A stretch of 64,000 nucleotides of DNA from Sipunculus nudus (lineage: Eukaryota > Annelida > Sipuncula > Golfingiida > Sipunculidae), in assembly GCA_026874595.1 (NCBI GenBank), contig CM049309.1, positions 91,348,723-91,412,722 on the forward strand, written 5' to 3'. Numbering within the stretch: position 1 is the first letter of the stretch; each line of letters begins with the position of its first letter. The translations under genes and the position numbers were made by a program. Shown here piece after piece: positions 420 through 63,888 of this stretch. The notes under the pieces were generated by a model. It saw only the letters and a program-made list of their open reading frames with translations, was not told the DNA's origin and did no database searches.

Positions 420-525
420 CAGCTGATCTCTCAGTGTCTCCAAGAACTGGTGGTCCTGAGTTGGAGTCTTCACTCAGACGGCCTATGCTGTCACTGTCTC
501 GCGTTCGCTCAGCGATCACCGACAC
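420..525 (-). CDS. TAF2: TAF2 exon 17 (predicted; may be terminal)
   Basis: In phase with exon 16: VSVIAERTRDSDSIGRLSED, then SNSGPPVLGDTERSA plus one base. Acceptor CCTCAG, candidate donor GCTG|GTACAA. If that donor is not used the frame continues 28 more codons to a stop near 331, making this the last exon. The Ser/Asp-rich make-up suits a disordered tail, but homology is too weak to decide. Confidence 0.6.
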
Positions 526-3500: not shown

Positions 3501-6500
3501 AGAGATGTTGTCTCTGTTCATCTCATGATAGCTGTAAGAGATGTTGTCTCTGTTCATCTCATTATAGCTGTAAGAGATGTTGTCTCTGTTCATCTCATGA
3601 TAGCTGTAAGAGATGCTGTCTCTGTTCATCTCATGATAGCTGTATGAGATGTTGTCTCTGTTCATCTCATGATAGCTGTAAGAGATGTTGTCTCTGTTCA
3701 TCTCATGATAGCTGTAAGAGATGTTGTCTCTGTTCATCACTTATTTACAACATTATATAGTTAAGGATGGACAGACAGGACACATGAATACATTCTGAAA
3801 ATCACAGCTGTCCATTCCACTGACAGTAAGCTCTATAGCTCGAAAGAATTCTTGGACCTACATGCCACATAATTCACTAGTATATAATTCAGGCCACATG
3901 CTTGGCCCCCATTGCAAAATGAGGTCAGGGTCCAGGGGCAGTGAATATGACCAGTCTGTCAGCAAATGTCAGAAAGAGAGGTCTAGATTGAACTTGTTCT
4001 TCTTGCTATATCACTTTCAATAAATGTTTATATTTATTAAACAATGTGTTCCATGTATACAAACATAAAAGCAGTAAAGTTGTTTTTATGTTTTAGTGTA
4101 ATTATATGATTATTTAATTACCTGTTGAAGAAGTACAGTGTCATCCCTTGGTGGGTTTGGTTCCTCGGGCACCATGGATGGGTGTATCATTGTTGTTCCT
4201 TGTCTCAGATTAAGTACCATCACAGACTGTAAACAGAGTAAAATGAGCACCATCACAAACTGTAAACACAGAGGAACATGAGTACCATCACAGAGTCCTG
4301 TAAACACAGGGTAACATGAGCACCATCACAAACTGTACACACAAAGGAACATGAGTCCCAACACAGACTGTAAACACAGAGGAACATGAGTCCCAACACA
4401 GACTGTAAACACAGAGGAACATGAGTCCAATCACAGACTGTTAACACTGAGTAACATGAGTACCATCACAAACTGTAAACAGAGGAACTTAAGTACCATC
4501 ACATACTGTAAACACAGAGTAACACGAGTCCAATCACAGACTGTTAACACTGAGTAACATGAGTACCATCACAAACTGTAAACAGAGGAACTTAAGTACC
4601 ATCACATACTGTAAACACAGAGTAACATGAGTCCAATCACAGACTGTTAACACTGAGTAACATGAGTACCATCACAAACTGTAAACAGAGGAACTTAAGT
4701 ACCATCACATACTGTAAACACAGAGTAACATGAGCAACACCACAGACTGTAAACACAGAGGAACATGAGCACCATCACAGAATGTAAATACAGAGGAACA
4801 TGAGTCGCATCACAGACTGTAAACACTGAGTAACATGAGTACCATCTCAGACTGTAAACACAGACGAACATGAGTCCCATCACAGACTGTAAACACAGAG
4901 GATCATGAGTACCATCACAGACTGTAAACACAGAGTAACATGAGCAACACCACAGACTAAACTGAGGAACTTAAATACCATCACAGACTGTAAACACAGA
5001 GGAACATGAGTCCCACCCCAGACTGTAAACTGAGGAACTTGAGAACCTTCACAGACTGTTTACACAGACAAACATGAGTACCAACACAGACTGTACACAC
5101 AAAGGGACATGAGTACCATCACAGACTGTTAACACTGAGGAACATAAGTACCATCACAGTCTAGAAACAGAGGAACATGAGTCCCATCACAGACTGTAAA
5201 CACAGAGGAACATGAGTACCATCAAAGACTGTAAACAGAGGAACTTGAGTACCATCACAGACTGTAAACAGAGGAACTTAAGTACCATCACAGACTGTTA
5301 ACACTGAGGAACATAAGTACCATCACAGTCTAGAAACAGAGGAACATGAGTCCCATCACAGACTGTAAACACAGAGGAACATGAGTACCATCACAGACTG
5401 TAAACAGAGGAACTTGAGTACCATCAAAGACTGTAAACACAGAGCAACATGAGTACCATCAAAGACTGTAAACAGAGGAACTTGAGTACCATCACAGACT
5501 GTAAACAGAGGAACTTAAGTACCATCACAGACTGTAAACACAGAGCAACATGAGTACCATCACAGACTGTAAACACAGAGGAACATGTGCACCATCACAG
5601 ACTGTAAACACAGAGGAACATGAGTACCATCACAGACTGTAAACACAGAGGAACATGAGTACCATCTCAGACTGTAAACACAGAGGATCATGAGTACCAT
5701 CACAGACTGTTAACACAGAGGAACATGAGTACTATCACAGACTGTAAACACATAGGAACATGAGTACCATCACAGACTGTAAACACAGAGGAACATGAGT
5801 CCCACCACAGACTGTAAACACAGAGGAACATGAGTCCCATCAAAAACTGTAAATACAGAGTAAAATGCATCCCATCACAGACTGTATACTGTTTAAGTAA
5901 AATATAGTTTGATCCACCAAGGGAAGCCGTCAATAAAAATTAATACTTGTGGGATTACCTCTGGTATAGGTAAACAGGCTGGTCTGGTTCGGCCATAGAG
6001 AGTGTGGTACAAGTCAGCTACATCACACCTCAGACGGGAATCATGGGCAAACTCAGAACTGAAACACAGTCACAAAAATATAATGAATTCTCATATAAAA
6101 TGTAGAAAAATATCATAAAGAAACATACTATATTCTTTAAATGGATGTATTCAGGTTCTTATTCTCATAAGACCAAATATTCAATCAGAAAAACATTAGA
6201 CAAGCATGACACATACCAGTCAAAGTTTGTGATATATAATTCATCTTTGACAAAAAGACAAAATCATGTGTACAGAAATTGTAGCTCTTATAAAACAAGG
6301 GACCCATGGGTTACAGCGCTCAGCTGATTATGACAGTTATAACTGCATCACCATAGATTTTTTGAAGTTGCAATAAAAATACTATTGTCAGTGCTCAGGA
6401 ACTAGGGCTCAATGACTTGGGGAGGGGGGAGAGAGTTACAATATCTTTGGATATAAATACAGAATACAGAATTAAATTCAGTGGGACTGGTGGGAGTTAC

Positions 6501-54500: not shown

Positions 54501-57500
54501 ATACAAAGATCTACCCATCAAAACAGCCCATAGAAAGATCTACCAATCACGGCGGAGTATAAACAAACAGCGATACACAGATCTACCCATCAAAACAGCC
54601 CATACACAGATCTACCAATCACGGCGGAGTATAAACAAACAGCCCATACACAGATCTACCAATCACGGCGGAGTATAAACAAACAGCCCATACACAGATC
54701 TACCCATCAAAACAGCCGATACACAGATCTACCAATCACGGCGGAGTATAAACAAACAGCCCATACACAGATCTACCCATCAAAACAGCCCATACAAAGA
54801 TCTACCAATCACGGCGGAGTATAAACAAACAGCCAATACACAGATCTAACCATCAAAACAGCCCATACACAGATCTACCAATCACGGCGGAGTATAAACA
54901 AACAGCCAATACACAGATCTACCACTCATGGCAGTGTATTAACAAACAGCCCTTACACAGATCTACCACCAATGACAATGTATAAACAAACAGCCCATAC
55001 ACAGATCTACCCATCAAAACAGCCCATACAAAGATCTACCAATCACGGCGGAGTATAAACAAACAGCCCATACACAGATCTACCAATCACGGCGGAGTAT
55101 AAACAAACAGCCCATACAAAGATCTACCCATCAAAACAGCCCATACAAAGATCTACCAATCACGGCGGAGTATAAACAAACAGCCCATACACAGATCTAC
55201 CCATCAAAACAGCCCATACACAGATCTACCAATCACGGCGGAGTATAAACAAACAGCCCATACACAGATCTACCCATCAAAACAGCCCATACACAGATCT
55301 ACCAATCACAGCGGAGTATGAGCAAACAGCCCATACACAGATCTACCCATCAAAACAGCCCATACACAGATCTACCAATCACGGCCGAGTATAAACAAAC
55401 AGCCCATACACAGATCTACCCATCAAAACAGCCCATACACAGATCTACCAATCACGGCGGAGTATAAACAAACAGCCCATACACAGATCTACCCATCAAA
55501 ACAGCCCATACACAGATCTACCAATCACGGCGGAGTATAAACAAACAGCCCATACACAGATCTACCCATCAAAACAGCCCATACACAGATCTACCAATCA
55601 CGGCCGAGTATAAACAAACAGCCCATACACAGATCTACCCATCAAAACAGCCCATACACAGATCTACCAATCACGGCAGAGGATAAAAAAACAGCACATA
55701 CACAGATCTACCCATCAAAACAGCCCATAAACAGATCTACCAATCACGGCGGAGTATAAACAAACAGCCCATACACAGATCTACCCATGAAAACAGCCCA
55801 TACACAGATCTACCAATCAAGGAGGAGTATAAACAAACAGCCCATACACAGATCTACCCATCAAAACAGCCCATACAAAGATCTACCAATCACGGCGGAG
55901 TATAAACAAACAGCCCATACACAGATCTACCCATCAAAACAGCCCATACACAGATCTAATAATCACGGCGGAGTATAAACAAACAGCCCATACACAGATC
56001 TACCCATCAAAACAGCCCATACACAGATCTACCAATCACGGCGGAGTATAAACAAACAGCCCATACACAGATCTACCCATCAAAACAGCCCATAAACAGA
56101 TCTACCAATCACGGCATAGTATAAACAAACAGCCCATACACAGATCTACCCATCAAAACAGCCCATACACAGATCTACCAATCACGGCAGAGTATAAACA
56201 AACAGCCCATACACAGATCTACCCATCAAAACAGCCAATAAACAGATCTACCAATCACGGCGGAGTATAAACAAACAGCCCATACACAGATCTACCCATC
56301 AAAACAGCCCATACACAGATCTACCAATCACGGCGGAGTATAAACAAACAGCCCATACACAGATCTACCCAACAAAACAACCCATACACAGATCTACCAA
56401 TCACGGCGGAGTATAAACAAACAGCCCATACACAGATCTACCCATCAAAACAGCCCATACAAAGATCTACCAATCACGGCGGAGTATAAACAAACAGCCC
56501 ATACACAGATCTACCCATCAAAACAGCCCATACACAGATCTACCAATCACGGTGGAGTATAAACAAACAGCCCATACACAGATCTACCCATCAAAACAGC
56601 CCATACACAGATCTACCAATCACGGCGGAGTATAAACAAACAGCCCATACACAGATCTACCCATCAAAACAGCCCATAAACAGATCTGCCAATCAAAACA
56701 GCCCATAAACAGATCTACCAATCACGGCGGAGTATAAACAAACAGCCCATACACAGATCTACCCATCAAAACAGCCCATACAAAGATCTACTAATCACGG
56801 CGGAGTATAAACAAACAGCCCATACACAGATCTACCCTTTAAAACAGCCCATACACAGATCTACCAATCACGGCGGAGTATAAACAAAAAGGCCATACAC
56901 AGATTTACCAATCACGGCGGAGTATAAACAAACTGCCCATACACAGATCTACCCATCAAAACAGCCCATACACAGATCTACCAATCACGGCGGAGTATAA
57001 ACAAACAGCCCATACACAGATCTACCCATCAAAACAGCCCATACACAGATCTACCAATCACGGTGGAGTATAAACAAACAGCCCATACACAGATCTACCC
57101 ATCAAAACAGCCCATACACAGATCTACCAATCACGGCGGAGTATAAACAAACAGCCCATACACAGATCTACCCATCAAAACAGCCCATAAACAGATCTAC
57201 CAATCAAAACAGCCCATAAACAGATCTACCAATCACGGCGGAGTATAAACAAACAGCCCATACACAGATCTACCCATCAAAACAGCCCATACAAAGATCT
57301 ACCAATCACGGCGGAGTATAAACAAACAGCCCATACACAGATCTACCCATCAAAACAGCCCATACACAGATCTACCAATCACGGCGGAGTATAAACAAAC
57401 AGCCCATACACAGATCTACCCATCAAAACAGCCCATACACAGATCTACCAATCACAGCGGAGTATGAGCAAACAGCCCATACACAGATCTACCCATCAAA

Positions 57501-60500
57501 ACAGCCCATACACAGATCTACCAATCACGGCCGAGTATAAACAAACAGCCCATACACAGATCTACCCATCAAAACAGCCCATACACAGATCTACCAATCA
57601 CGGCGGAGTATAAACAAACAGCCCATACACAGATCTACCCATCAAAACAGCCCATACACAGATCTACCAATCACGGCGGAGTATAAACAAACAGCCCATA
57701 CACAGATCTACCCATCAAAACAGCCCATACACAGATCTACCAATCACGGCCGAGTATAAACAAACAGCCCATACACAGATCTACCCATCAAAACAGCCCA
57801 TACACAGATCTACCAATCACGGCAGAGTATAAAAAAACAGCACATACACAGATCTACCCATCAAAACAGCCCATAAACAGATCTACCAATCACGGCGGAG
57901 TATAAACAAACAGCCCATACACAGATCTACCCATGAAAACAGCCCATACACAGATCTACCAATCAAGGAGGAGTATAAACAAACAGCCCATACACAGATC
58001 TACCCATCAAAACAGCCCATACAAAGATCTACCAATCACGGCGGAGTATAAACAAACAGCCCATACACAGATCTACCCATCAAAACAGCCCATACACAGA
58101 TCTACCAATCACGGCGGAGTATAAACAAACAGCCCATACACAGATCTACCCATCAAAACAGCCCATACACAGATCTACCAATCACGGCGGAGTATAAACA
58201 AACAGCCCATACACAGATCTACCCATCAAAACAGCCCATAAACAGATCTACCAATCACGGCATAGTATAAACAAACAGCCCATACACAGATCTACCCATC
58301 AAAACAGCCCATACACAGATCTACCAATCACGGCAGAGTATAAACAAACAGCCCATACACAGATCTACCCATCAAAACAGCCCATAAACAGATCTACCAA
58401 TCACGGCGGAGTATAAACAAACAGCCCATACACAGATCTACCCATCAAAACAGCCCATACACAGATCTACCAATCACGGCGGAGTATAAACAAACAGCCC
58501 ATACACAGATCTACCCAACAAAACAACCCATACACAGATCTACCAATCACGGCGGAGTATAAACAAACAGCCCATACACAGATCTACCCATCAAAACAGC
58601 CCATACAAAGATCTACCAATCACGGCGGAGTATAAACAAACAGCCCATACACAGATCTACCCATCAAAACAGCCCATACACAGATCTACCAATCACGGTG
58701 GAGTATAAACAAACAGCCCATACACAGATCTACCCATCAAAACAGCCCATACACAGATCTACCAATCACGGCGGAGTATAAACAAACAGCCCATACCCAG
58801 ATCTACCAATCAAAACAGCCCATACACAGATCTACCAATCACGGCGAAGTATAAACAAAAAGGCCATACACAGATTTACCAATCACGGCGGAGTATAAAC
58901 AAACTGCCCATACACAGATCTACCCATCAAAACAGCCCATACACAGATCTACCCATCAAAACAGCCCATACACAGATCTACCAATCACGGTGGAGTATAA
59001 ACAAACAGCCCATACACAGATCTACCCATCAAAACAGCCCATACACAGATCTACCAATCACGGCGGAGTATAAACAAAAAGGCCATACACAGATTTACCA
59101 ATCACGGCGGCGTATAAACAAACAGCCAATACAAAGATCTACCCATCAAAACAGCCCATACACAGATCTACCAATCACGGCGGAGTATAAACAAACAGCC
59201 CATACACAGATCTACCCATCAAAACAGCCCATACAAAGATCTACCAATCACGGCGGAGTATAAACAAACAGCCCATACACAGATCTACCCATCAAAACAG
59301 CCCATACAAAGATCTACCAATCACGGCGGAGTATAAACAAACAGCCCATACACAGATCTACCCATCAAAACAGCCCATACACAGATCTACCAATCACGGC
59401 GGAGTATAAACAAACAGCCCATACACAGATTTACCAATCACGGCGGAGTATAAACAAACTGCCCATACACAGATCTACCCATCAAAACAGCCCATACACA
59501 GATCTACCAATCACGGCGGAGAATATACAAACAGCCCATACACAGATCTACCCATCAAAACAGCCCATACACAGATCTACCAATCACGGCGGAGTATAAA
59601 CAAACAGCCCATACACAGATCTACCCATCCAAACAGCCCATAAACAGATCTACCCATCAAAACAGCCCATACAAAGATCTACAAATCACGGCGGAGTATA
59701 AACAAACAGCCCATACACAGATCTACCCATCAAAACAGCCCATACACAGATCTACCAATCACGGCGGAGTATAAACAAACAGCCCATACACAGATCTACC
59801 CATCAAAACAGCCCATACACAGATCTACCAATCACGGCGGAGTATAAACAAACAGCCCATACACAGATCTACCCATCAAAACAACCCATACACAGATCTA
59901 CCAATCACGGCGGAGTATAAACAAACAGCCCATACACAGATCTACCCATCAAAACAGCCCATACAAAGATCTACAAATCACGGCGGAGTATAAACAAACA
60001 GCCCATACACAGATCTACCCATCAAAACAGCCCATACACAGATCTACCAATCACGGCGGAGTATAAACAAACAGCCCATACACAGATCTACCCATCAAAA
60101 CAGCCCATACAAAGATCTACCAATCACGGCGGAGTATAAACAAACAGCCCATACACAGATCTACCCATCAAAACAGCCCATACACAGATCTACCAATCAC
60201 GGCGGAGTATAAACAAACAGCCCATACACAGATTTACCAATCACGCCGGAGTATAAACAAACAGCCCATACAAAGATCTACCCATCAAAACAGCCCATAC
60301 AAAGATCTACCAATCACGGCGGAGTATAAACAAACAGCGATACACAGATCTACCCATCAAAACAGCCCATACACAGATCTACCAATCACGGCGGAGTATA
60401 AACAAACTGCCCATACACAGATCTACCCATCAAAACAGCCCATACACAGATCTACCAATCACGGCGGAGTATAAACAAACAGCCCATACACAGATCTACC

Positions 60501-63500
60501 CATCAAAACAGCCCATACACAGATCTACCAATCACGGCGGCGTATAAACAAACAGCCAATACACAGATCTACCCATCAAAACAGCCCATACACAGATCTA
60601 CCAATCACGGCGGAGTATAAACAAACAGCCCATACACAGATCTACCCATCAAAACAGCCCATACAAAGATCTACCAATCACGGCGGAGTATAAACAAACA
60701 GCCCATACACAGATCTACCTATCAAAACAGCCCATACACAGATCTACCAATCACGGCGGAGTATAAACAAACAGCCCATACACAGATCTACCCATCAAAA
60801 CAGCCCATACACAGATCTACCAATCATGGCTGAGTATAAACAAACAGCCAATACACAGATCTACCCATCAAAACAGCCCATACACAGATCTACCAATCAC
60901 GGCGGAGTATAAACAAACAGCCCATACACAGATCTACCACCCATGGTGGTGTATAAACAAACAGCCCATACACAGATCTACCACTCATGGTGGTGTATAA
61001 ACAAACAGCCCATATACAGATCTACCCCTAATGGTGGTGTATAAACAAACAGCCCATACACAGATCTACCACTCATGGAGGTGTATAAACAAACAGCCCT
61101 TACATAGATCTACCACTCATGGTGGTGTATAAACAAACCGCCCATACACAGATCTACCACTCATGGTGGTGTATAAACAAACAGCCCATACACAGATCTA
61201 CCACTCATGGTGGTGTATAAACAAACAGCCCATATACAGATCTACCACTCATGGAGGTGTATAAACAAACAGCCCTTACACAGATCTACCACTCATGGAG
61301 GTGTATAAACAAACAGCCCTTACATAGATCTACCACTCATGGACGTGTATAAACAAACAGCCCTTACATAGATCTACCACTCATGGAGGTGTATAAACAA
61401 ACAGCCCTCAACAGATCTACCACTCATGGACGTGTATAAACAAACAGCCCTTACACAGATCTACCACTCATGGTAGTGTATAAACAAACAGCCCTTACAC
61501 AGATCTACCACTCATGGTGGTGTATAAACAAACAGCCCTTGCACAGATCTACCACTCATGGTAGTGTATAAACAAACAGCCCTTACACAGATCTACCACT
61601 CATGGTGGTGTATAAACAAACAGCCCATATACAGATCTACCCCTTATGGTGGTGTATAAACAAACAGCCCATACACAGATCTACCACTCATGGAGGTGTA
61701 TAAACAAACAGCCCATACACAGATCTACCACTCATGGAGGTGTATAAACAAACAGCCCTTACACAGATCTACCACTCATGGACGTGTATAAACAAACAGC
61801 CCTGACACAGATCTACCACTCATGGAGGTGTATAAACAAACAGCCCATACACAGATCTACCACTCACGATGGTGCATAAACAAACAGCCCATACACAGAT
61901 CTACCACACATGGAGGTGTATAAACAAACAGCCCATACACAGATCTACCACTCATGGAGGTGTATAAACAAACAGCCCATACACAAATCTACCACTCATG
62001 GAGGTGTATAAACAAACAGCCCATACACAAATCTACCACTCATGGTGGGGAAACCTCTCCTTGCAGACATCTCTCTGTTGAATCTACGTCCCACAGTAGG
62101 TAAATTCTAAATTTAAACTATCCAAAAAGACTGACTTTGTATTTTTTTCATTACAATGAATTTATAATTATAAGTTAAGCTTGGAAACTAAGTTTAAGAA
62201 TGGTGTGTACAGTGATTATTCAATTTATAGTGATTACCATTTTTTATGTGATCATAACTCATTACACTTATGATTTAAAAAAGGCAAGTAAAATTTGATT
62301 TATTAGCAATGTCCAAGAAATTACCAAATGAGAAAAATTTTGAAAAAGTAGAACTGTAAAGTCCTGAAACTACTACAATCTATCTTAAATAATCTTAAAC
62401 ATATTTAGAACAGGCATTTACCTTATGAAGGAACAACTAAAGTAACATAAAACAAACCCAAGACTAAACTCAGTTCTTAACATACATACTTACATTCCAC
62501 AAGGGAGTTTTGTTACCTTCTTTCTATGTGGGTGGAATACAAGTATGTGTAGGGGTAAAAGAGGGTTTTAGTGTGATATCACTTCAATTTTCTGGTGTTT
62601 TGAATTGGTCATTTTTGTAACTTTATCACCTGCCAGGGAAGCATACCATCCAGGCAGCCATATTGTGCCCCAGAAGGTTGTTTGTTCCACATTTGATTAA
62701 AAAAATTACCAGGTACCCAATCACTGCTAGTTTAAGATGGCATCCTTGTGGCTAAGACTTCACTAGGGGTCTCAGTGCAAACAACCATTCAAATAAGTAA
62801 CAATCCACAACTCTGTTACCACCAATTTCTGGCATAGGAGTTGGGCATACTCCATTTGAAAAAGGCCCCCTATTTCTGAAGTATAAATTGACACTTTACA
62901 AGATATAGGTCACCATGCTCAAGGCCAGCAATTTTTTAACTTGTCCATCAACTTTGTTGAAACAATTTGTGTAAAACATATGAGTACGACATATACACTA
63001 CTTGATAGGTTATGGGGTTCACAATAATCTCATGAACCATTGAAATGGCCTTGACCAAACAGACCAAGCAGTAGACATGAATCACACGGAGTCTCTGATA
63101 GCACACAGAATGCATTGATGCACTAATACTAACAGAATCTACATCTACTGTTACCTAAACTGTATAATGCTGTGTGTTTTATATCTTTATTATTTCTTAT
63201 TTCCTCCATGCATTTCTCATGAACTTAAGGAATATGTTGAGGAGATAAAAATCCTGGAGGGAGATTAAGAAGCTACTGGCACTTAATACCAATTTTTTGA
63301 GTACATCTTGGGTAATAAATAACAGGACACAAAATAAGAAAACTAAAATTTAAATCATGCTAATCTCTCACCTTCTGCTCTTTGAGTGACATGTGATATC
63401 AAATTTGGTTTTGTTTTCTTCAATCTTGAACGTATGGTTGAATGAGCCATCCAGCTCCTGAATAGTGACAGTCAGTGGACCCTATGGAAAGAAATATTAC

Positions 63501-63888
63501 AATTAAAACAATTCAGCCAAATATATAAACTGGATTAAAGGAGACTCCTGAATAGTGATAGTCAGTGGGCCCTTTAAAGAAGAATTATTAATGATTATAC
63601 TGAATTGAATAGCTGCAATACAACCTTCTACATTTGTTACATACATGTACCAGCACACAGATGTTACAGTCGCTGCTATCACGGTTGGAACATACAGTAG
63701 CTAATATTCAAAGTATTATGACTTTGTAGAAAATTGGAGCCTTCTTTAACTGACTTTTTAAGAACATACTTACCACGTATTTCATGGCACCCTTTGCATT
63801 CATTTCTTGCTTCAGTTCCAGTTCAACAGCATTTCTTTTTCTGTTGAATATGAAACTTCCAGTAAACCTGGCACAACCTGCCTGATGT
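420..63888 (-). CDS. TAF2: TAF2 homologue (TFIID subunit 2), 17 exons, gene-level entry
   Basis: TAF2 is a nuclear TFIID subunit. It has a catalytically dead M1-aminopeptidase-like domain followed by HEAT-like helical repeats, contacts core promoter DNA and docks with TAF8 and TAF1. Seventeen minus-strand exons were read by eye. Every internal exon has AG/GT borders and the codon phases join without conflict, giving about 642 residues. Segments very close to vertebrate TAF2 (from memory) include FNRKRN, QELDGSFNHT, KKKKIPLM-GEEVDMDLSAM, DPDM, MWQYQLR, TPA-RLALTD, MVSTW-GPPAM, FILDLIKYND, FSDNYYRA, ILEEVTR and LRAIRKLQK. The aminopeptidase-like N-terminal part lies beyond the right edge. The last three exons are weakly conserved and acidic or Ser/Pro-rich, and no His/Lys-rich tail like the vertebrate one is visible. 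The introns hold nearly 24 kb of tandem repeats, a nested gene and several mobile elements. The identity is firm; the exact 5' and 3' limits are not. Confidence 0.95.
526..1402 (-). other. TAF2 intron 16, exon-17-proximal part
   Basis: AT-rich intron with a C-run near 1.14 kb. No gene, array or element recognised. Confidence 0.5.
1403..2432 (+). mobile_element. Pearl/Helentron-like non-autonomous element with three tandem core units
   Basis: The head AAAAGCCCTCAGCC is mirrored by the tail GGGCTGAGGGCTAAAA, giving short inverted ends. Three core units of about 302 bases follow one another, marked by GGTCAAGGTCACCCATCTTC near 1.62, 1.92 and 2.22 kb. After the last unit comes a GGAC/GGAT microsatellite (2.35-2.38 kb). 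Head, tandem core, tetranucleotide run and tail match the layout described for pearl elements of bivalves. No ORF. The class name is inference. Confidence 0.6.
2540..2656 (-). CDS. TAF2: TAF2 exon 16 (predicted)
   Basis: 39 codons in phase with exon 15: KPELLEEEIISPGGPLSHMD, then PTPALVLPEDFLQVQKSSS. Acceptor CTTCACAG, donor TCATCG|GTACAT. Acidic and Pro-rich, as expected for a disordered TAF2 tail. A second open frame over the same bases (EARVAGGGDHLP...) is out of phase and rejected. Confidence 0.7.
2657..3031 (-). other. TAF2 intron 15
   Basis: Short AT-rich intron of 375 bases, with an ATC/ATG trinucleotide-rich patch near 2.67-2.77 kb that makes a spurious acidic ORF. Nothing else seen. 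Confidence 0.6.
3032..3217 (-). CDS. TAF2: TAF2 exon 15 (predicted)
   Basis: 62 codons in phase with exon 14: EKPMDIDPVRVELPTGLKRR, then AESPLHVNV and SVKFRFSETRSE. Acceptor TTCTCAG, donor GTGAG|GTAAAC. It has no close counterpart in vertebrate TAF2 as remembered, apart from a short acidic MDID/IDMD patch. Kept because frame, borders and lack of stops all agree. Confidence 0.75.
3377..3738. repeat. 36-bp minisatellite in intron 14, about 10 units
   Basis: Unit GATAGCTGTAAGAGATGTTG then TCTCTGTTCATCTCAT. AGAGATGTTGTCTCT is a small inverted repeat, so units could form hairpins. The 36-bp period gives an open frame of 12-residue repeats (MNRDNISYSYHE) on the minus strand, a by-product. On the TAF2 strand each unit contains TCTCTTACAG, which resembles an acceptor, but no exon matches the rest. 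Confidence 0.9.
3739..4121 (-). other. TAF2 intron 14, exon-14-proximal part
   Basis: Unique AT-rich intron between the exon 14 donor and the 36-bp array. Nothing recognised. Confidence 0.6.
4122..4226 (-). CDS. TAF2: TAF2 exon 14
   Basis: 35 codons: SVMVLNLRQGTTMIHPSMVP, then EEPNPPRDDTVLLQQ. Aligns with vertebrate LVLNLKEKKAVLNPTIIPE. The acceptor TTTACAG|TCTG was chosen because it is in phase with exon 13 and is the array copy nearest the exon body. Donor CAACAG|GTAATT. Equivalent acceptors lie every 33-35 bases upstream, so the 5' edge needs transcript support. Confidence 0.85.
4212..5888 (-). repeat. Exon-14 border minisatellite: about 48 copies of acceptor plus exon start
   Basis: On the TAF2 strand the 33-35-bp unit reads TGTTCCTCTGTGTTTACAG|T, then CTGTGATGGTACTCA: a pyrimidine-rich tract, an acceptor AG and the first 14-16 bases of exon 14. 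Most units keep TTTACAG. It fills nearly the whole 1.7-kb intron 13. Higher-order copying is visible at 4.43-4.73 kb, where a three-unit block of about 105 bp recurs three times. The unit is not a multiple of three, so upstream acceptors would usually shift the frame. Confidence 0.93.
5959..6058 (-). CDS. TAF2: TAF2 exon 13
   Basis: Encodes (N)SEFAHDSRLRCDVADLYHTL, then YGRTRPACLPIPE. Matches vertebrate NSGTSHDWRLRCGAVDLYFT and RPSCLPLPE. Acceptor TTTCAG, donor AGAG|GTAATC. Ends in phase 0. Confidence 0.95.
6059..7475 (-). other. TAF2 intron 12, exon-13-proximal part
   Basis: AT-rich intron with a repeat head near 6.29 kb (ACAAGGGACCCATGGGTTAC), a GGT/G-run at 7158-7204 and long A/T runs. 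Short ORFs near 6.1 and 6.7 kb have no domain. Confidence 0.5.
7476..8522 (+). repeat. Dispersed repeat core interrupted by another copy's head
   Basis: The core begins CATTCCATGGTCAAATTTGG and runs in the same order as the copy at 11.56 kb as far as TTTTTAATAAAA near 7.85 kb. There it breaks into ACAAGGGACCCATGGGTCAC, the head of another copy. This nesting shows at least two rounds of insertion. The DNA after the head is AT-rich and not assigned. Confidence 0.6.
8523..8564 (+). repeat. Head of dispersed repeat
   Basis: AACAAGAGACCCATGGGTCA, then CGGCGCTCAGCTGAAT. Another insertion of the family whose body was not traced. Confidence 0.65.
8565..10889 (-). other. TAF2 intron 12, middle part
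   Basis: AT-rich intron with a T22/G14 homopolymer junction at 9301-9336 and one more repeat head near 9.52 kb (AAGGGACCCATGGGTCACGG). ORFs at 9.58-9.76 and 9.80-10.14 kb are AT-driven and show no domain. No gene seen. Confidence 0.5.
9519..9552 (+). repeat. Head of dispersed repeat (conserved ACAAGGGACCCATGGG motif)
   Basis: Same 33-base head as at 6.29, 7.85 and 8.52 kb, ending GGCGCTCAGCTG. The complement of the family's other end (TTAGCTCAGCTGA) matches the last part of the head, so the element has short inverted ends. Confidence 0.65.
10890..11390 (+). repeat. Dispersed repeat family copy (core only)
   Basis: Begins ATGCCATGGTCAAAGTTGGG and follows the same core order as the copies at 7.48 and 11.56 kb (GGCAAAATTTAAGGTAC, TTTCTGGCATG, CAGTGGTTTTGATAT, AAGGCAGTC), but more diverged. 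It ends AGCTGAGCTCTAGCTGACTG without the microsatellite. Confidence 0.65.
11560..12336 (+). repeat. Dispersed repeat family copy with GGAC/GGAT microsatellite tail
   Basis: Starts GTGCCATGGTCAAACTTGGG, continues with an AT-rich core, then the GACGGACGGAC-type microsatellite near 12.02-12.07 kb and the end ATAGTCAGCTGAGCTAA near 12.11 kb. A second, shorter copy of the tail follows directly (to about 12.34 kb, ending AGCTAAGCTAA). Core, tetranucleotide run and conserved end are arranged like bivalve pearl/Helentron-like non-autonomous elements. The family assignment is inference. Confidence 0.65.
12424..12917 (-). repeat. Four intronic copies of the exon 12 end, spaced by microsatellites
   Basis: Copies of the last 55-65 exon bases plus donor lie at about 12802-12867, 12612-12682, 12521-12586 and 12424-12488, increasingly diverged with distance from the exon. 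The two nearest keep TTCATGAA|GTGAG exactly; the far two have lost it. The spacers are simple repeats: CA/TG runs and, between copies 1 and 2, about 120 bases of CCAACC, CCCAA and CCACCC. The unit is thus exon end, donor, microsatellite. Confidence 0.92.
12683..12801. repeat. C/A microsatellite cluster (CCAA, CCCAA, CCACC units)
   Basis: Tetra- to hexanucleotide runs within the exon 12 border array. The open frames on both strands are simple Pro/Thr/His or Gly/Trp/Val runs and not genes. Confidence 0.95.
12918..13022 (-). CDS. TAF2: TAF2 exon 12
   Basis: Encodes HRVMRMLVDAVIFTKRDKSS, then LNTEGLVDRLWSFM plus two bases of Asn. Matches vertebrate RHKILNMLTKNPPFTK and EALVDQLWKLMN. Acceptor ATTACAG, donor ATGAA|GTGAGG. 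The 3' half of this exon with the donor is copied several times in the following intron. Confidence 0.95.
13023..13332 (-). other. TAF2 intron 11
   Basis: Short unique GT-AG intron of 310 bases, acceptor ATTACAG. Nothing else seen. Confidence 0.7.
13333..13402 (-). CDS. TAF2: TAF2 exon 11
   Basis: 70 bases: (D)EQNNDVLQWLMDLVEEDPEV, then YV. Matches vertebrate YEELQWLLNMIQNDPVPYVR. Acceptor TTTCAG, donor GTCAG|GTAACA. Phase in 1, out 2, agreeing with both neighbours. Confidence 0.94.
13403..13719 (-). other. TAF2 intron 10, exon-11-proximal part
   Basis: Contains a degraded head of the window's dispersed repeat (TGATCCATGGGCCAAGATGC, then CTCAGCTGA) near 13.43 kb. Otherwise unique. Confidence 0.5.
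13720..14215. repeat. 41-bp minisatellite just inside intron 10, about 12 units
   Basis: Unit GTCTACATTGTCTCTTTACT then GTCTAGTTCCTGTGTGAGCC (plus strand). It begins about 25 bases after the exon 10 donor. Unlike the arrays at exons 4, 8 and 14, it does not contain recognisable exon sequence or the donor, so it is an intron-only array that happens to lie close to a border. Confidence 0.92.
14242..14381 (-). CDS. TAF2: TAF2 exon 10
   Basis: 46 full codons: CLRAIRKLQKFGHVPSG, then FLDVRLVALEALVDYVK. Matches vertebrate CLRAIRVLQKNGHVPSD and FVDIRIAALEAVVDYTK. Acceptor TTACAG, donor AAAG|GTAAGA. Split codons at both ends agree with exons 9 and 11. Confidence 0.96.
14382..15761 (-). other. TAF2 intron 9
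   Basis: AT-rich intron of 1.38 kb. The short open frames have no domain, and no element ends or arrays were seen. Confidence 0.5.
15762..15878 (-). CDS. TAF2: TAF2 exon 9
   Basis: Encodes QAPSTDFLSADTKAILEEVT, then RCLNLEKLLPCYKMTVTV. Matches vertebrate VRLILEEITRFLNMEKLLPS and HTITVS. Acceptor TTGCAG, donor GTCAG|GTCAGA (off-consensus). Entry phase 2 and exit phase 2 agree with neighbours. Confidence 0.95.
15879..16226 (-). other. TAF2 intron 8, exon-9-proximal part
   Basis: Unique sequence between the 54-bp array and the exon 9 acceptor (TTTTGCAG). Contains a short local repeat of GTACAGAAAACAT. Nothing else seen. Confidence 0.5.
16227..17427 (-). repeat. Exon-8 border minisatellite: about 23 units of 54 bp with exon end and donor
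   Basis: On the TAF2 strand each unit holds the last 33 bases of exon 8 (TPAVTLVTVTG), the donor GTAAGT and 21 intron bases. Two unit types alternate, one with CTGTAAAC and GACTAGTGT, the other with TGGTATAC and GACCAATGT (plus strand), giving a 108-bp higher-order repeat. Nearly all units keep GTAAGT; three near the exon side have lost it. In the exon frame the unit reads GGG TAA across the donor, so any distal donor brings an early stop. Confidence 0.95.
17428..17513 (-). CDS. TAF2: TAF2 exon 8
   Basis: Encodes FSDNYYRAALLDALSNTITP, then AVTLVTVT plus two bases of Gly. Acceptor TTACAG, donor ACAGG|GTAAGT. FSDNYYRA and TPAV match vertebrate TAF2; the LVTVT end does not match closely. The last 33 bases and the donor are the seed of the array downstream. 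Phase agrees with exon 9. Confidence 0.93.
17514..18227 (-). other. TAF2 intron 7
   Basis: Unique intron between the duplicated exon 7 donor and the exon 8 acceptor (GTTACAG). Two overlapping short minus-strand ORFs at 17.84-18.14 kb show no family signature and are taken as chance. Confidence 0.55.
18228..18285 (-). repeat. Two-copy duplication of the exon 7 end and its donor (28-bp period)
   Basis: AACAGTCGTAACAAG|GTAAGG at the exon end is followed 28 bases later by AACAGTCGTAACAAG|GTAGAG. The second copy keeps a usable GT donor. Using it would add 28 bases and shift the frame. This is the simplest, probably youngest, border duplication in the gene. Confidence 0.9.
18267..18377 (-). CDS. 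TAF2: TAF2 exon 7
   Basis: 37 codons: TLPVAMANLRTVHGICPPEV, then FILDLIKYNDNSRNK. Acceptor TTTCAG, donor AACAAG|GTAAGG, phase 0. Matches vertebrate TMPVAMALLRDVHNLCPKEV and FILDLIKYNDNRKNK. Confidence 0.96.
18378..18903 (-). other. TAF2 intron 6
   Basis: AT-rich intron of 526 bases with a strong T9-CAG acceptor. No repeats or genes seen. Confidence 0.7.
18904..19044 (-). CDS. TAF2: TAF2 exon 6
   Basis: 47 codons: VANMMVSTWAGPPAM, then SCPSIV and FQHYFLQK. Acceptor TTGCAG, donor AAAAG|GTGAGC, phase 0. Matches vertebrate NSMVSTWTGPPAM, SCPNIV and FQSYFLQK. Confidence 0.96.
19045..19405 (-). other. TAF2 intron 5
   Basis: Short unique intron of 361 bases, GT-AG, with no repeats seen. Confidence 0.7.
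19406..19525 (-). CDS. TAF2: TAF2 exon 5
   Basis: 40 codons: AIKALEKYATPATRLALTD, then ENEKCFYKVRMESAVCLSK. Acceptor TTGTAG, donor CCAAG|GTAAAG, phase 0 at both ends. Strong match to vertebrate ILALEKFPTPASRLALTD and QCFYRVRMSACFCLAK, part of the HEAT-like region. Confidence 0.96.
19526..20239 (-). other. TAF2 intron 4, exon-5-proximal part
   Basis: Short unique AT-rich stretch between the array and exon 5. It holds the acceptor TTGTAG and nothing else recognised. Confidence 0.5.
20240..26856 (-). repeat. Exon-4 border minisatellite: about 190 copies of exon end plus splice donor
   Basis: On the TAF2 strand the usual 30-bp unit is GTGGCTCAGACAGAG|GTGGGTGTCTGTGTG: the last coding bases of exon 4 (VAQTE) joined to its own donor. 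Lengths of 28, 30 and 32 bases arise from CA/TG slippage. A 30-bp unit keeps the exon frame (VAQTEVGVCV); 28- and 32-bp units switch to WWLRQRWVSV or GGSDRGGCLC, so all three frames stay open over long stretches. Many open frames on both strands result from this and are not genes. A block of several hundred bases near 22.6-23.1 kb recurs near 23.9-24.3 kb, showing large-scale copying as well. A hAT-like element interrupts the array. Confidence 0.95.
20851..21694. mobile_element. hAT-like non-autonomous DNA element inside the exon-4 array
   Basis: The ends TAGGGTTGGGACG and (complement) TAGTGTTGAGACG form short inverted repeats followed by GATATC-rich subterminal text on both sides (TATTATCACGATATC; GTGATATCACGGTATATCGC). 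The 844-base core has no transposase. An 8-base target duplication cannot be proved because both flanks are ACACAC repeat. The terminal pattern and subterminal repeats suggest hAT. Confidence 0.7.
26857..26989 (-). CDS. TAF2: TAF2 exon 4
   Basis: Encodes ADSPVLWLRVDPDM, MWQYQLRFER and CVVAQTE, matching vertebrate ADSPLLWIRIDPDM and YERDVVAQQE. The acceptor is GTCAG|T and the donor ACAGAG|GTGGGT, an off-consensus site. The exon end is chosen because it joins in phase to exon 5 (AIKALEKY), matching vertebrate SILALEKF. The last 15-18 bases and the donor are the seed of the huge array that follows. The next unit supplies an equally good donor exactly 30 bases on, which would add ten residues in frame. 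Confidence 0.9.
26990..28369 (-). other. TAF2 intron 3, exon-4-proximal part
   Basis: Unique intron starting at the exon 4 acceptor, with a C14 run near 27.57 kb. The segment at 27.59-27.74 kb is GC-richer than its surroundings but no known RNA or protein was recognised. The rest is AT-rich with nothing seen. Confidence 0.4.
28370..28706. mobile_element. MITE-like element with long inverted ends
   Basis: The left end GGTATGGTTCTCAGGCAC matches the complement of the right end (GCGCCTGAGAACCATACC). The match extends outward through A/T runs to GGCC, about 35 bases with gaps. The core is AT-rich and non-coding. A diverged relative lies at 36.6 kb; the LTR element landed about 50 bases to its right. 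Confidence 0.8.
28760..29490 (+). repeat. Left LTR of the Gmr1-like element
   Basis: Starts TGTTGCATGGACGTCACC and ends GACCGTAACA (TG...CA ends). GCCTATAAAACGAACTCGCC near the middle is a plausible TATA-type promoter. Nearly identical to the right LTR. Confidence 0.95.
34723..35454 (+). repeat. Right LTR of the Gmr1-like element
   Basis: Same ends and the same TATAAAA-like promoter patch as the left copy. It is preceded by a purine run and followed by TTTG. Confidence 0.95.
35455..36634 (-). other. TAF2 intron 3, stretch right of the LTR element
   Basis: Unique-looking AT-rich intron starting with the 4-base TTTG target-site copy of the LTR element. No gene, array or recognisable element end was found. 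Confidence 0.4.
36635..36950. mobile_element. MITE-like element, diverged relative of the one at 28.4 kb
   Basis: The left end AAGGTTGGTTTCTCAGGCAC matches the complement of the right end (GTGCCTGAAAAACAAACCTT) imperfectly. The core shares order and wording with the 28.4-kb element (GTGTGGGC, GTAAAAGCA, GCAAAATTGG, AAAATTGA). Non-coding, about 0.3 kb. Confidence 0.7.
36951..37429. repeat. Dispersed repeat fragment of the 'tgaccttg..aaggtca' kind
   Basis: Contains phrases such as AAGGTCAAGGTTG, TTTGACCTTGAAGATC, ACAATGTGTCTCATGTG and a tail with GATGACTTACAGTCAGCAGAGC. This type of text recurs in the window (near 1.6-2.4 kb and 62.9-63.05 kb). Ends are not defined and there is no coding potential. 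Confidence 0.45.
37430..37606. repeat. Flank segment duplicated about 1.65 kb away
   Basis: About 175 bases (ATGGATTTGTGCA..., ending in the first ATATATAAG unit) recur at 39083-39260 with only a handful of differences. A block containing flank plus array was therefore tandemly duplicated as a whole, not just by unit slippage. Confidence 0.9.
37590..39890. repeat. 38-bp minisatellite, about 55-60 units, with an internal flank duplication
   Basis: The consensus unit begins TGTGATATATAAGTCAGGCT and continues GTTACCTTTGCCATTCAG. Recurring variants (CTGATACCTATGCC, AAGTAAGGC, ATTCTGTG) appear in repeated order, showing higher-order copies. On the TAF2 strand each unit reads GGCAAAG|GTAACA, a good donor-like AG|GT. 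At 39082-39260 the array is interrupted by a near-identical copy of its own left flank. Confidence 0.95.
39891..40348. other. Intronic spacer upstream of the nested gene
   Basis: Unique sequence between the 38-bp minisatellite and the nested gene. A 71-codon open frame here has no recognisable domain. No promoter element could be picked out with confidence. Confidence 0.4.
40349..40367 (+). promoter_or_regulatory. Likely 3' splice site before the nested gene's coding exon
   Basis: A T/C-rich run ending TTCTAG lies 17 bases before the start codon, the shape of an acceptor. It suggests that a non-coding 5' exon is spliced to a single coding exon, so the promoter may be some distance upstream. 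Confidence 0.5.
40385..42325 (+). CDS. CARD-like adaptor with two decayed NACHT-like modules (nested gene)
   Basis: A 646-residue uninterrupted coding exon inside a TAF2 intron, on the opposite strand. Residues about 5-85 have the helix pattern of a CARD or related death fold (ILKNLDLEVIIIEELRS, then LERKSASQIKEFC). Residues about 188-245 look like a second, weaker death fold (GLVTAKVITEEQAAVV). A charged linker follows. Near residues 335-370 and 500-590 are two segments shaped like the Walker B part of NACHT ATPases: hydrophobic beta strand, then KGYDK or KGFNYY where active proteins have DG-DE, then a LLP-type strand. No P-loop is visible, so ATP hydrolysis is unlikely. The start is firm: an in-frame TGA lies 12 bases upstream and the ATG context (A at -3, G at +4) is strong. 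The role is inferred: a cytosolic death-fold adaptor or decoy in innate immunity or apoptosis. Confidence 0.8.
   Translation: MAEDLRRNINTNRVEILKNLDLEVIIIEELRSKYIISQEQAETLLDETIPYRRNSLFIRYLERKSASQIKEFCGVLQNYRQEHVCQMITESGPTTSVSNETSDGIFKNFVKCMYAPQEKEEPEDVETTDGHTKEKQTSERLKNLSDDTDQGSHKHVWARVGQALAKIGDELNALYDYKRSMETDPYRMSDLDLIILAGLVTAKVITEEQAAVVAEHKKLNLFKCSFAYISGEEKNNFMNKLQKTLVLQDNEKQDSTHTCPDTEKVKEQDSKISTDIQDDIKYNNSMKQAREIVKEDIIEKEATFTDTQQKPVLPLMKDIDLNALCATVLSEKNQCKVLFLIKGYDKSKLDENSDLQKLLNREILPEATCIVSTTDQFPGYKTSWSDKEVLVEEYLHKHTIPDEENHPVWMKPKKSSKEYIQNCCIEDIKESHKNRVSSLKQGQQTMKLYEVCFSGTPSRVLTVDPVQATLKALFIDTVAVDWALFWQFMKQGKPLETMLDKALEHLLNYEICMTIDLHEVTSDQTLVDIIKSQHPKFEELEDLEEFLEKNQNKTLFLVKGFNYYITNGMFNSDINKLFEKTLLPDVVCVLAYRGKVRRSAFHWGRCVQLTEDQVDVCRSHGKGRKRRSDGPVFCAVQLDAKKPRNL
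42326..42694 (+). other. Putative 3' UTR and polyadenylation signal of the nested gene
   Basis: AT-rich sequence after the stop of the nested CARD-like gene. An AATAAA at 42614-42619, about 290 bases past the stop, is the best polyadenylation signal candidate. No other feature is seen. Confidence 0.45.
42695..43438. mobile_element. MITE-like element with inverted ends
   Basis: The left end CAGTGGAACCTGTCT and the right end (complement CAGTGTAACCTGTGT) form a terminal inverted repeat of about 15 bases around a 0.74-kb non-coding core. The phrase CTGTCTAATAAGACCACC near the right end is typical of dispersed repeats in invertebrate genomes. No transposase is present, so it would be non-autonomous. 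The superfamily is not assigned. Confidence 0.55.
43439..44850 (-). other. TAF2 intron 3, exon-3-proximal part
   Basis: AT-rich intron with no convincing gene. It contains an imperfect tandem duplication of about 146 bases at roughly 44.06-44.34 kb (shared TTTTTATGCCATCTTCTTTC and ACAGCCATTAC blocks). Short ORFs here have no recognisable domain. Confidence 0.5.
44061..44340. repeat. Two-copy tandem duplication, about 146-bp period
   Basis: TTTTTATGCCATCTTCTTTC, GTATATTTGG, ACAGCCATTACC, TACTACTGCAAT and TTTACCTGT recur in order in both copies, with several substitutions and small indels. It is not linked to any exon border. Confidence 0.7.
44851..44916 (-). CDS. TAF2: TAF2 exon 3
   Basis: 66-bp exon encoding (R)NKKKKIPLM then GEEVDMDLSAM and two bases of Asp. 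This is the basic-then-acidic linker found in vertebrate TAF2. The acceptor TTCAG|GAAC sits directly on the satellite; the donor is GGA|GTAAGT. Phase 2 on entry and 2 on exit, agreeing with exons 2 and 4. Confidence 0.93.
44917..46518. repeat. Satellite array, exon-3 side block
   Basis: Same 44/29-bp family as the larger block beyond the DIRS insertion; the two were one array of about 300 units before insertion. Its inner edge is the acceptor of TAF2 exon 3: the last unit runs to within about six bases of the AG, so the repeat supplies the T-rich tract (CTGTTTGTTTATATTCAG). A patch near 46.0-46.26 kb has CCACCAATGACAATG variants that also occur at 53.2-53.35 kb. Confidence 0.95.
46519..46712 (+). 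repeat. DIRS terminal repeat, recombinase-proximal end
   Basis: Inverted relative to the repeat at the other end. The shared part runs from TATTAATGAGAATT to the CCCATAATCACA side, while the outermost 55 or so bases (C-run, then CATTCCCTCCCTGTGAATGG) are specific to this end, as DIRS family ends are. Confidence 0.85.
46759..46874. repeat. DIRS internal complementary region
   Basis: The first half is the reverse complement of the element's left outer end; the second half, after a G-run, is the reverse complement of its right outer end (TTTTATTACGTAAACATAAT). In DIRS elements this junction is believed to template circular intermediates. Confidence 0.85.
52016..52188 (-). repeat. DIRS terminal repeat, gag-proximal end
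   Basis: Inverted partner of the other terminal repeat, sharing GGCCCAATAAGGGAAAATTT and TTTATACGCCAGAGTAAGCC (as the complement). The outermost 40 or so bases are unique to this end and recur inverted in the internal complementary region. Confidence 0.85.
52189..60919. repeat. Satellite array, main block (alternating 44- and 29-bp units)
   Basis: The main unit is 44 bp (CACGGCGGAGTATAAACAAA, then CAGCCCATACACAGATCTAC, then CAAT). It alternates with a 29-bp short form lacking the GGCGGAGTATAAACA part, giving a 73-bp dimer. Nearly every unit keeps a BglII-type AGATCT. A higher-order duplication is visible: roughly 55.3-56.65 kb recurs at 57.45-58.8 kb, shifted by 2146 bases, with the same rare variants in the same order. 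There are no coding features; the short open frames inside are by-products of the period. Confidence 0.95.
60920..62046. repeat. Satellite edge: divergent 44-bp units
   Basis: About 25 units of the same 44-bp satellite, but with ACTCATGGTGGTGTATAAAC in place of AATCACGGCGGAGTATAAAC and without the 29-bp short units that alternate in the main array. Units here differ more from each other than those in the centre, as expected at the ageing margin of a satellite that homogenises from its middle. Confidence 0.85.
62047..63371 (-). other. TAF2 intron 2, exon-proximal unique part
   Basis: Begins just after the exon 2 donor and runs to the edge of the satellite. It is AT-rich intronic DNA with no ORF above background. 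Two stretches resemble common molluscan intergenic repeats (an AAGGTCAACATG-type patch near 62.9 kb), but no ends could be defined. Confidence 0.5.
63372..63481 (-). CDS. TAF2: TAF2 exon 2
   Basis: Reads GPLTVTIQELDGSFNHTF and ends CHSKSR plus two bases of the next codon. The acceptor is CATAG|GGT and the donor AAG|GTGAGA. It is among the most conserved stretches of TAF2 in the window. A second copy of its first 26 or so bases lies about 90 bases upstream in the intron. Confidence 0.95.
63455..63573 (-). repeat. Duplicated acceptor border of TAF2 exon 2 (two copies)
   Basis: The first 26 or so bases of exon 2 and its AG (63455-63483) recur at 63545-63573, with three base differences in about 29. 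The upstream copy still has AG before GG, in a purine-rich context (TTTAAAG|GG), so it is probably a poor acceptor. This is the smallest acceptor-side case of the border duplications seen across this gene. Confidence 0.8.
63482..63773 (-). other. TAF2 intron 1 (of those in this window)
   Basis: Intron of 292 bases between exons 1 and 2. Its only notable content is the extra copy of the exon 2 acceptor border. Confidence 0.8.
63774..63888 (-). CDS. TAF2: TAF2 exon 1 of those in this window
   Basis: Encodes HQAGCARFTGSF followed by FNRKRN and ends in MKYV with donor GTG|GTAAGT. The residues align with the end of the aminopeptidase-like domain of vertebrate TAF2 (DQSGVAKF...). Three acceptor AGs lie within 12 bases, so the exon could begin at 63888, 63881 or 63877. 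The first was chosen because the His-Gln it adds still aligns with the vertebrate protein. Ends in phase 0. Confidence 0.85.

Follow-up and report, generated by a model that had tools for sequence, protein, structure and literature searches.

The TAF2 gene encoded on the minus strand of a 64,000-nucleotide stretch of the Sipunculus nudus genome (the window) carries, at six of its 34 exon borders, a segment that crosses the border and is tandemly repeated in the adjoining intron. Such arrays had been placed at exons 2, 4, 7, 8, 12 and 14 by the initial annotation, and copy counts confirm all six. The arrays are very probably border-anchored minisatellites of the kind named 'mirage' in lancelets and 'exon stuttering' in the chicken, seeded and enlarged as proposed below and with no selected function.

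Eighteen minus-strand exons (E1 to E18) join into one open frame in the window. When the first 503 residues of the product were compared with solved structures, human TAF2 (chain 30ff_DB) matched across E1 to E14 (E=5.7e-211); residues 1-490 align with human residues 527-1013 with one 3-residue gap, and 303 of 487 residues (62%) are identical. Because human TAF2 aligns there, the borders of E1 to E14 are regarded as firm, with the exception of the 5' edge of E1. Exons E1 (63774..63880, 5' end approximate) and E3 (44851..44916) were defined from the joined open frame and the human alignment, and E5 (19406-19525), E6 (18904-19044), E9 (15762-15878), E10 (14242-14381), E11 (13333..13402) and E13 (5959..6058) from the open frame. 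The last four exons, E15 (3032-3217), E16 (2540-2656), E17 (2436-2459) and E18 (420-576), are predicted from the open frame and splice signals only. Non-coding DNA outside the arrays has a GC content of 0.336 in the window, where no Rfam family reached its gathering score and no tRNA was found.

Copies were counted using the border's own unit as the query, and that unit is included in each count. At the donor of E4 (26857..26989, open frame and copy count), 193 copies of a 30-bp unit occupy 20241..26877 on the minus strand (TRF and copy count), with 20 exon and 10 intron bases aligned per unit and the last 20-21 bases of the exon inside the array; the border could be mapped in 192 copies, 179 of which keep GT. 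The acceptor of E14 (4122..4226, open frame and human alignment) adjoins 48 copies of a 35-bp unit at 4213..5903 (minus strand; TRF and copy count), each with about 14 exon bases, and AG is kept in 46 of the 48. The last 36 bases of E8 (17428..17513, open frame) lie within a donor array of 23 units of 54 bp at 16234..17463 (minus strand; TRF and copy count), in which GT is kept in 20/23. The donor array of E12 (12918..13022, open frame and copy count) repeats the last ~58 bases of the exon in five decaying copies at 12425..12975 (minus strand; copy count), with identities of 100, 97, 94, 83 and 76%; among the four copies with a mapped border the spacing is 111-194 bp, and three keep GT. Two 28-bp units span the donor border of E7 (18267..18377, open frame and human alignment) at 18228..18286 on the minus strand (TRF and copy count), both with GT, and the acceptor border of E2 (63372..63481, open frame and human alignment) has two copies, the extra one lying 90 bp upstream at 63545..63579 on the minus strand (86% identical) and both keeping AG. 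The copied exon part thus ranges from about 14 to 58 bp per unit across the border arrays. Arrays account for 96% of intron 13 (between E13 and E14), for 79% of intron 4 and 77% of intron 8 and, when a non-coding array beside E3 is counted, for 62% of intron 2. These counts come from one assembly, in which long arrays may contain errors. Earlier estimates of 2 to about 190 extra copies agree with the count at E4, own unit included, whereas E2 and E7 have only one extra copy each; the view that most copies retain a splice dinucleotide is upheld at all six borders.

To compare the borders with shuffled sequence, a 60-base query from each border was searched against the adjoining intron, over as much as 1.5 kb, and against 30 shuffles of it, at 32 of the 34 borders (the intron between the E16 donor and E17 acceptor is too short). 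Crossing copies were found at five borders, the E2 acceptor, the E4, E8 and E12 donors and the E14 acceptor, with z values of 13 to 44. The E7 copy lies too close to its border for this test, and its two units were seen by TRF and copy count. In the same test no significant copies were found at the borders of E5 and E6, or at those of E15 to E18 with the E16 donor and E17 acceptor left out. In a control test, searching the adjacent 1.5 kb with 60-base queries gave matches at 5/34 borders and at 73/2880 control positions, 55 of these in one stretch; it missed E7, where the copy falls within the hidden 30 bases, and it favours the claim because masking had removed the arrays from the controls.

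The copies were then considered as splice sites. Within the arrays, conservation of GT was 0.963 at E4 against 0.952 in the other columns (191 further copies) and 0.932 against 0.933 at E8 (22 further copies), and that of AG at E14 was 0.989 against 0.930 (47 further copies), an excess within one standard deviation (0.07-0.13 for the other columns). Because the splice dinucleotides show no clear excess of conservation over the other columns, the copies look like neutral by-products, either young or homogenised. Small scoring matrices were built from the remaining splice sites of the gene (13 donors and 15 acceptors). On these, 133/191 copies at E4, 16/22 at E8, 2/3 at E12 and 1/1 at E2 equalled or exceeded the score of the true site, compared with 0/47 at E14 and 0/1 at E7. 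Use of an alternative site would stay in frame and free of stops for 1/178 copies at E4 (the nearest, +30 nt) and 1/45 at E14 (upstream, +33 nt), and for none of the 19 tried at E8, the two at E12 or the single ones at E7 and E2. A YTNAY branch-point-like motif lies upstream of 44/48 E14 units, which is only suggestive because 44% of random positions also carry one. The E8 array additionally contains 11 acceptor-like TTTACAG or TTTAG sites, each with GTAAG or GTAAA 42 nt downstream. Of these 11 segments, 10 are open and preserve the E8-E9 frame, and each would add a 14-residue repeat. Their acceptors score 6.0 or less (two below -2), compared with 7.5 for the weakest of the 15 ordinary acceptors; the gene's own E2 acceptor, at 5.3, scores below the best of them. 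These 42-nt segments are raw material for exons rather than evidence of exons.

Several other explanations of the arrays were weighed against this evidence. If intronic minisatellites merely abound in the gene, some would reach exon edges by chance, and eight of the 12 arrays obtained by merging TRF rows by hand indeed cross no border. The other four, however, run 14-36 bp into an exon, when 0.41 crossing arrays are expected from random seeding on the collapsed window (P for four or more, 2.7e-4; 2.45e-4 with 13 or 19 arrays, when the period-20 row at 12025-12069, a simple repeat, and shorter periods are added). Two more copied borders, E2 and E12, are absent from the TRF rows and lie outside the 12-array list, and passages of the chicken report place the copied sources within 1 base of an exon border in more than 90% of cases (PMC12954441). 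Chance overlap is accordingly judged unlikely, and the expectation that arrays overlap borders above random placement holds within the window; the P value says nothing about the genome, because the window was picked for its striking look. Another possibility is that intronic satellites invaded the exons and took the place of the exon ends. Within the units, the coding parts conserved with human TAF2 are GPLTVTIQELDG, VVAQ-E, NDN--NK, TPAV and LVD-LW; they are common to the human protein at E2, E4, E7 and E12 and are limited to TPAV at E8, while the copied part at E14 matches weakly (SVMVL vs LGLVL). Because these parts are shared with human TAF2, comparison of the two sequences indicates that the exon end preceded the array in at least four cases, probably five. 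The proposal that ancestral coding bases seeded the introns therefore stands at E2, E4, E7 and E12, holds in part at E8 and finds a weak match at E14. In favour of invasion, the end of exon 8 after TPAV (TLVTVTG) is not conserved and lies beside the 3-residue gap in the human alignment, so a repeat-driven change of this tail is possible; as an account of the arrays, invasion is very improbable. Identity to the border unit drops with distance at E4, where rho is -0.16 and 1.5% of permutations reach so low a value, and at E12 (four copies, rho -1, 4%), but it does not drop at E8 (rho 0.18) and tends upward at E14 (rho 0.27), and simple outward growth from the exon is therefore not shown at the latter two.

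Selection for redundancy, in which the extra sites secure or regulate TAF2 splicing, could draw on the many copies at E4, E8, E12 and E2 that equal or outscore the true site, and on the human ABCA7 VNTR, which starts at a donor and is tied to splicing changes in passages of its report (PMC5954066). Against this, the dinucleotides are not clearly better conserved than their surroundings, nearly all alternative use would break the frame or meet a stop, and no copy at E14 or E7 scores as high as the true site; we hold selected redundancy to be distinctly unlikely. The initial annotation also likened the arrays to the AGGT tandem-duplication model of intron gain (Rogers). In that model too, tandem duplication supplies splice sites, but as the source describes it in the passages available a new intron arises from a duplicated exon segment (PMC3443670), whereas here old introns enlarge and no new introns appear, and the likeness does not carry far. 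AGGT spans the E4 and E7 donors, and is absent across the other four copied borders (E8 reads AGGGT, E12 AAGT, E2 AGGGT and E14 AGTC), on which ground the model was rejected. Introner-like transposons carrying splice sites might be suspected from an 11-base match between the E8 and E14 units (score 11, reached by 3/1000 shuffles). The units nevertheless contain coding bases of their own exons, none of the remaining 44 pairs among the 45 is conspicuous (next best, 25/1000 shuffles), and introner-like elements were rejected because units at different loci are unrelated, with 11 the maximum score among the 45 pairs. An origin by the AGGT route or from introners is thus extremely improbable, and, the E8/E14 pair apart, the earlier statement that no one satellite has spread among the borders is borne out.

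For border-anchored minisatellites, the reading that we prefer, the following course may be proposed from this one assembly. Seeding would occur when a segment reaching from the exon edge into the intron is duplicated by a short slippage or an error of repair, and would be tolerated because the outermost copy retains the whole exon and splice site while the extra copy lies inside the intron. Unequal exchange or more slippage could then multiply the copies on the intron side into the tens or hundreds, with selection preserving the one at the exon. As a consequence visible in the sequence, the intron fills with splice-site copies. The exon-proximal copy of a donor and the last copy of an acceptor are the sites that splicing is expected to select, because their use preserves the reading frame. 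The remaining copies would be a by-product of mutation and a reserve of extra splice sites and pseudo-exons, and in the tests made here they show no selected function. At E7, ATG begins each of the two copies and also the stretch that follows them, which suits a slip at short homology, although a single case is not proof.

In the chicken, quadruplexes and GC-richness are the suspected cause according to passages of the report (PMC12954441). Among the six border arrays here, G3 quadruplex motifs were found in E12 only, together with GGGT-type simple repeats, and the weaker G2 motifs in two (E12 and E4); array GC ranges from 0.37 to 0.59. A GC-rich or quadruplex-prone composition, proposed as a cause in the chicken but not part of the definition, is therefore not general here, and it fails as a cause for the arrays as a group, given the GC content of 0.336 and G3 motifs confined to E12.

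Other repeats in the gene cross no border. A seventh array had been reported at the acceptor of E3; it is present, and it ends about 6 bp short of the exon, in its pyrimidine tract, and contains no coding bases. The E3 acceptor query matched it only up to the border (z 7.7 against 30 shuffled introns). This 44/29-bp array occupies a distal part at 52188..62045 and a proximal part at 44922..46518 in the intron before E3 (both minus strand, TRF), and 33 further TRF rows all belong to it. Between the two parts, and flanked by the array on both sides, lies a retroelement with reverse transcriptase (46519..52187, strand unassigned; RVT_1, E=4.2e-16) that has inverted repeats of 148 nt and 48 nt. 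From its layout we take it to resemble a DIRS-type element with tyrosine recombinase; for the recombinase part, no Pfam match was found in the one frame tried. A 41-bp array at 13720-14211 starts about 30 bp after E10 and never reaches it, and further non-crossing arrays have units of 38 bp (37601-39887), 36 bp (3376-3738) and 302 bp (1543-2327). The 38-bp array adjoins no exon found, its unit carries the donor-like AAAGGTAACAG, and similar sequence flanking it recurs at two places; it might mark an unrecognised or lost exon.

Mobile elements and other open frames were also observed in the introns. An insert unrelated to the E4 donor array splits that array at 20848-21694 and has ends that, by eye, are inverted-terminal-repeat-like. 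The E3-E4 intron contains an LTR-type retroelement at about 28900-35300, with a 1486-residue open frame (29637-34097) in which, judged by eye, integrase-like motifs precede reverse-transcriptase-like motifs, an order that we assume to be that of Gmr1-like elements. The same intron holds, at 40376-42325 on the plus strand, a 649-residue open frame whose matches to CARD and NACHT fall slightly short of the Pfam cut-offs. Four near-identical mobile-element ends (GAGCG..GT.ACCCATGGG.CCCTTG) lie at 6296-9546, and together with the low GC content they give what we take to be a bivalve-like impression. Scans of viral contigs and of contigs from prokaryote genomes for the pattern of these ends gave no hits.

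Arrays of this kind have been described before. In amphioxus, where cases date back to at least 2002, passages of two reports describe 'mirages' in Adh3, TnC, the globins BflGb6 and BflGb9 and PGBD5 (PMC3087553, PMC3902484). As here, these are minisatellite-like tandem duplications across exon/intron boundaries, at donors and acceptors, many with AG or GT. In amphioxus, BflGb6 is described as having 6 and 3 units and PGBD5 as having a triplication, against 6/34 borders and up to 193 copies here. A chicken study of 2026 describes 'sequence stuttering' or 'exon stuttering' in 115 genes and 236 introns, 190 of them on dot chromosomes, with 1-44 copies (PMC12954441). There, too, lateral exon pieces with their donor or acceptor are tandemly copied through the adjoining intron; the exon part is given as 20-187 bp (median 36), compared with about 14-58 bp here, and the suspected GC-rich and quadruplex setting differs from a GC content of 0.336 and G3 motifs in one of six arrays. 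Normal mRNA splicing despite the copies is reported in passages on amphioxus, and length polymorphism in those on amphioxus and chicken (PMC3087553, PMC3902484, PMC12954441).

Two human cases come close. The ABCA7 intron-18 VNTR, like the donor arrays here, begins at the splice donor of an exon, but it is a single array that starts at GT and, by the description in its source, lacks coding bases, which the units here hold (PMC5954066). The same passages record RNA with exactly one retained unit, which is a measured precedent for splicing at the next copy. In genes of human segmental duplications, variable internal tandem repeats have units of 30 bp on average and about 4 repeats; a number of them sit at exon-intron boundaries and might create new introns, but they were studied in duplicated paralogs, and large intronic arrays at exon edges are not described in the passages concerned (PMC2812944). 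Among the matches listed in the open-access literature, only lancelets, chicken, human ABCA7 and the human segmental-duplication genes appeared, and none of the listed matches on molluscs or bivalves reports border repeats by title.

In TAF2 the unit spans the boundary, its copies lie in the neighbouring intron beside an intact exon, and AG or GT is kept. The arrays thus fit the mirage or exon-stuttering kind, already known in amphioxus and chicken, and the novelty first claimed for them was overstated. What appears to be new is the extent within one gene, the AT-rich introns and the in-frame 42-base pseudo-exons. The lancelet and chicken literatures describe one phenomenon under different names, and the main text of the chicken report does not contain the word 'mirage' (PMC12954441).

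The presence of the arrays in AT-rich introns of a gene 62% identical to its human counterpart argues that GC-rich microchromosomes are not required. More tentatively, border-anchored tandem growth might be a general mutational route to larger introns and new exons, beyond lancelets and the dot chromosomes of birds, with TAF2 here as a third, AT-rich lineage showing every stage. If this is so, one gene would hold seeds at E2 and E7, decay at E12, large arrays at E4 and E14 and pseudo-exons at E8. Splicing in this gene must strongly favour one site among up to about 190 near-identical ones, and a single gene permits seeding, growth, decay and possible exon birth to be compared.
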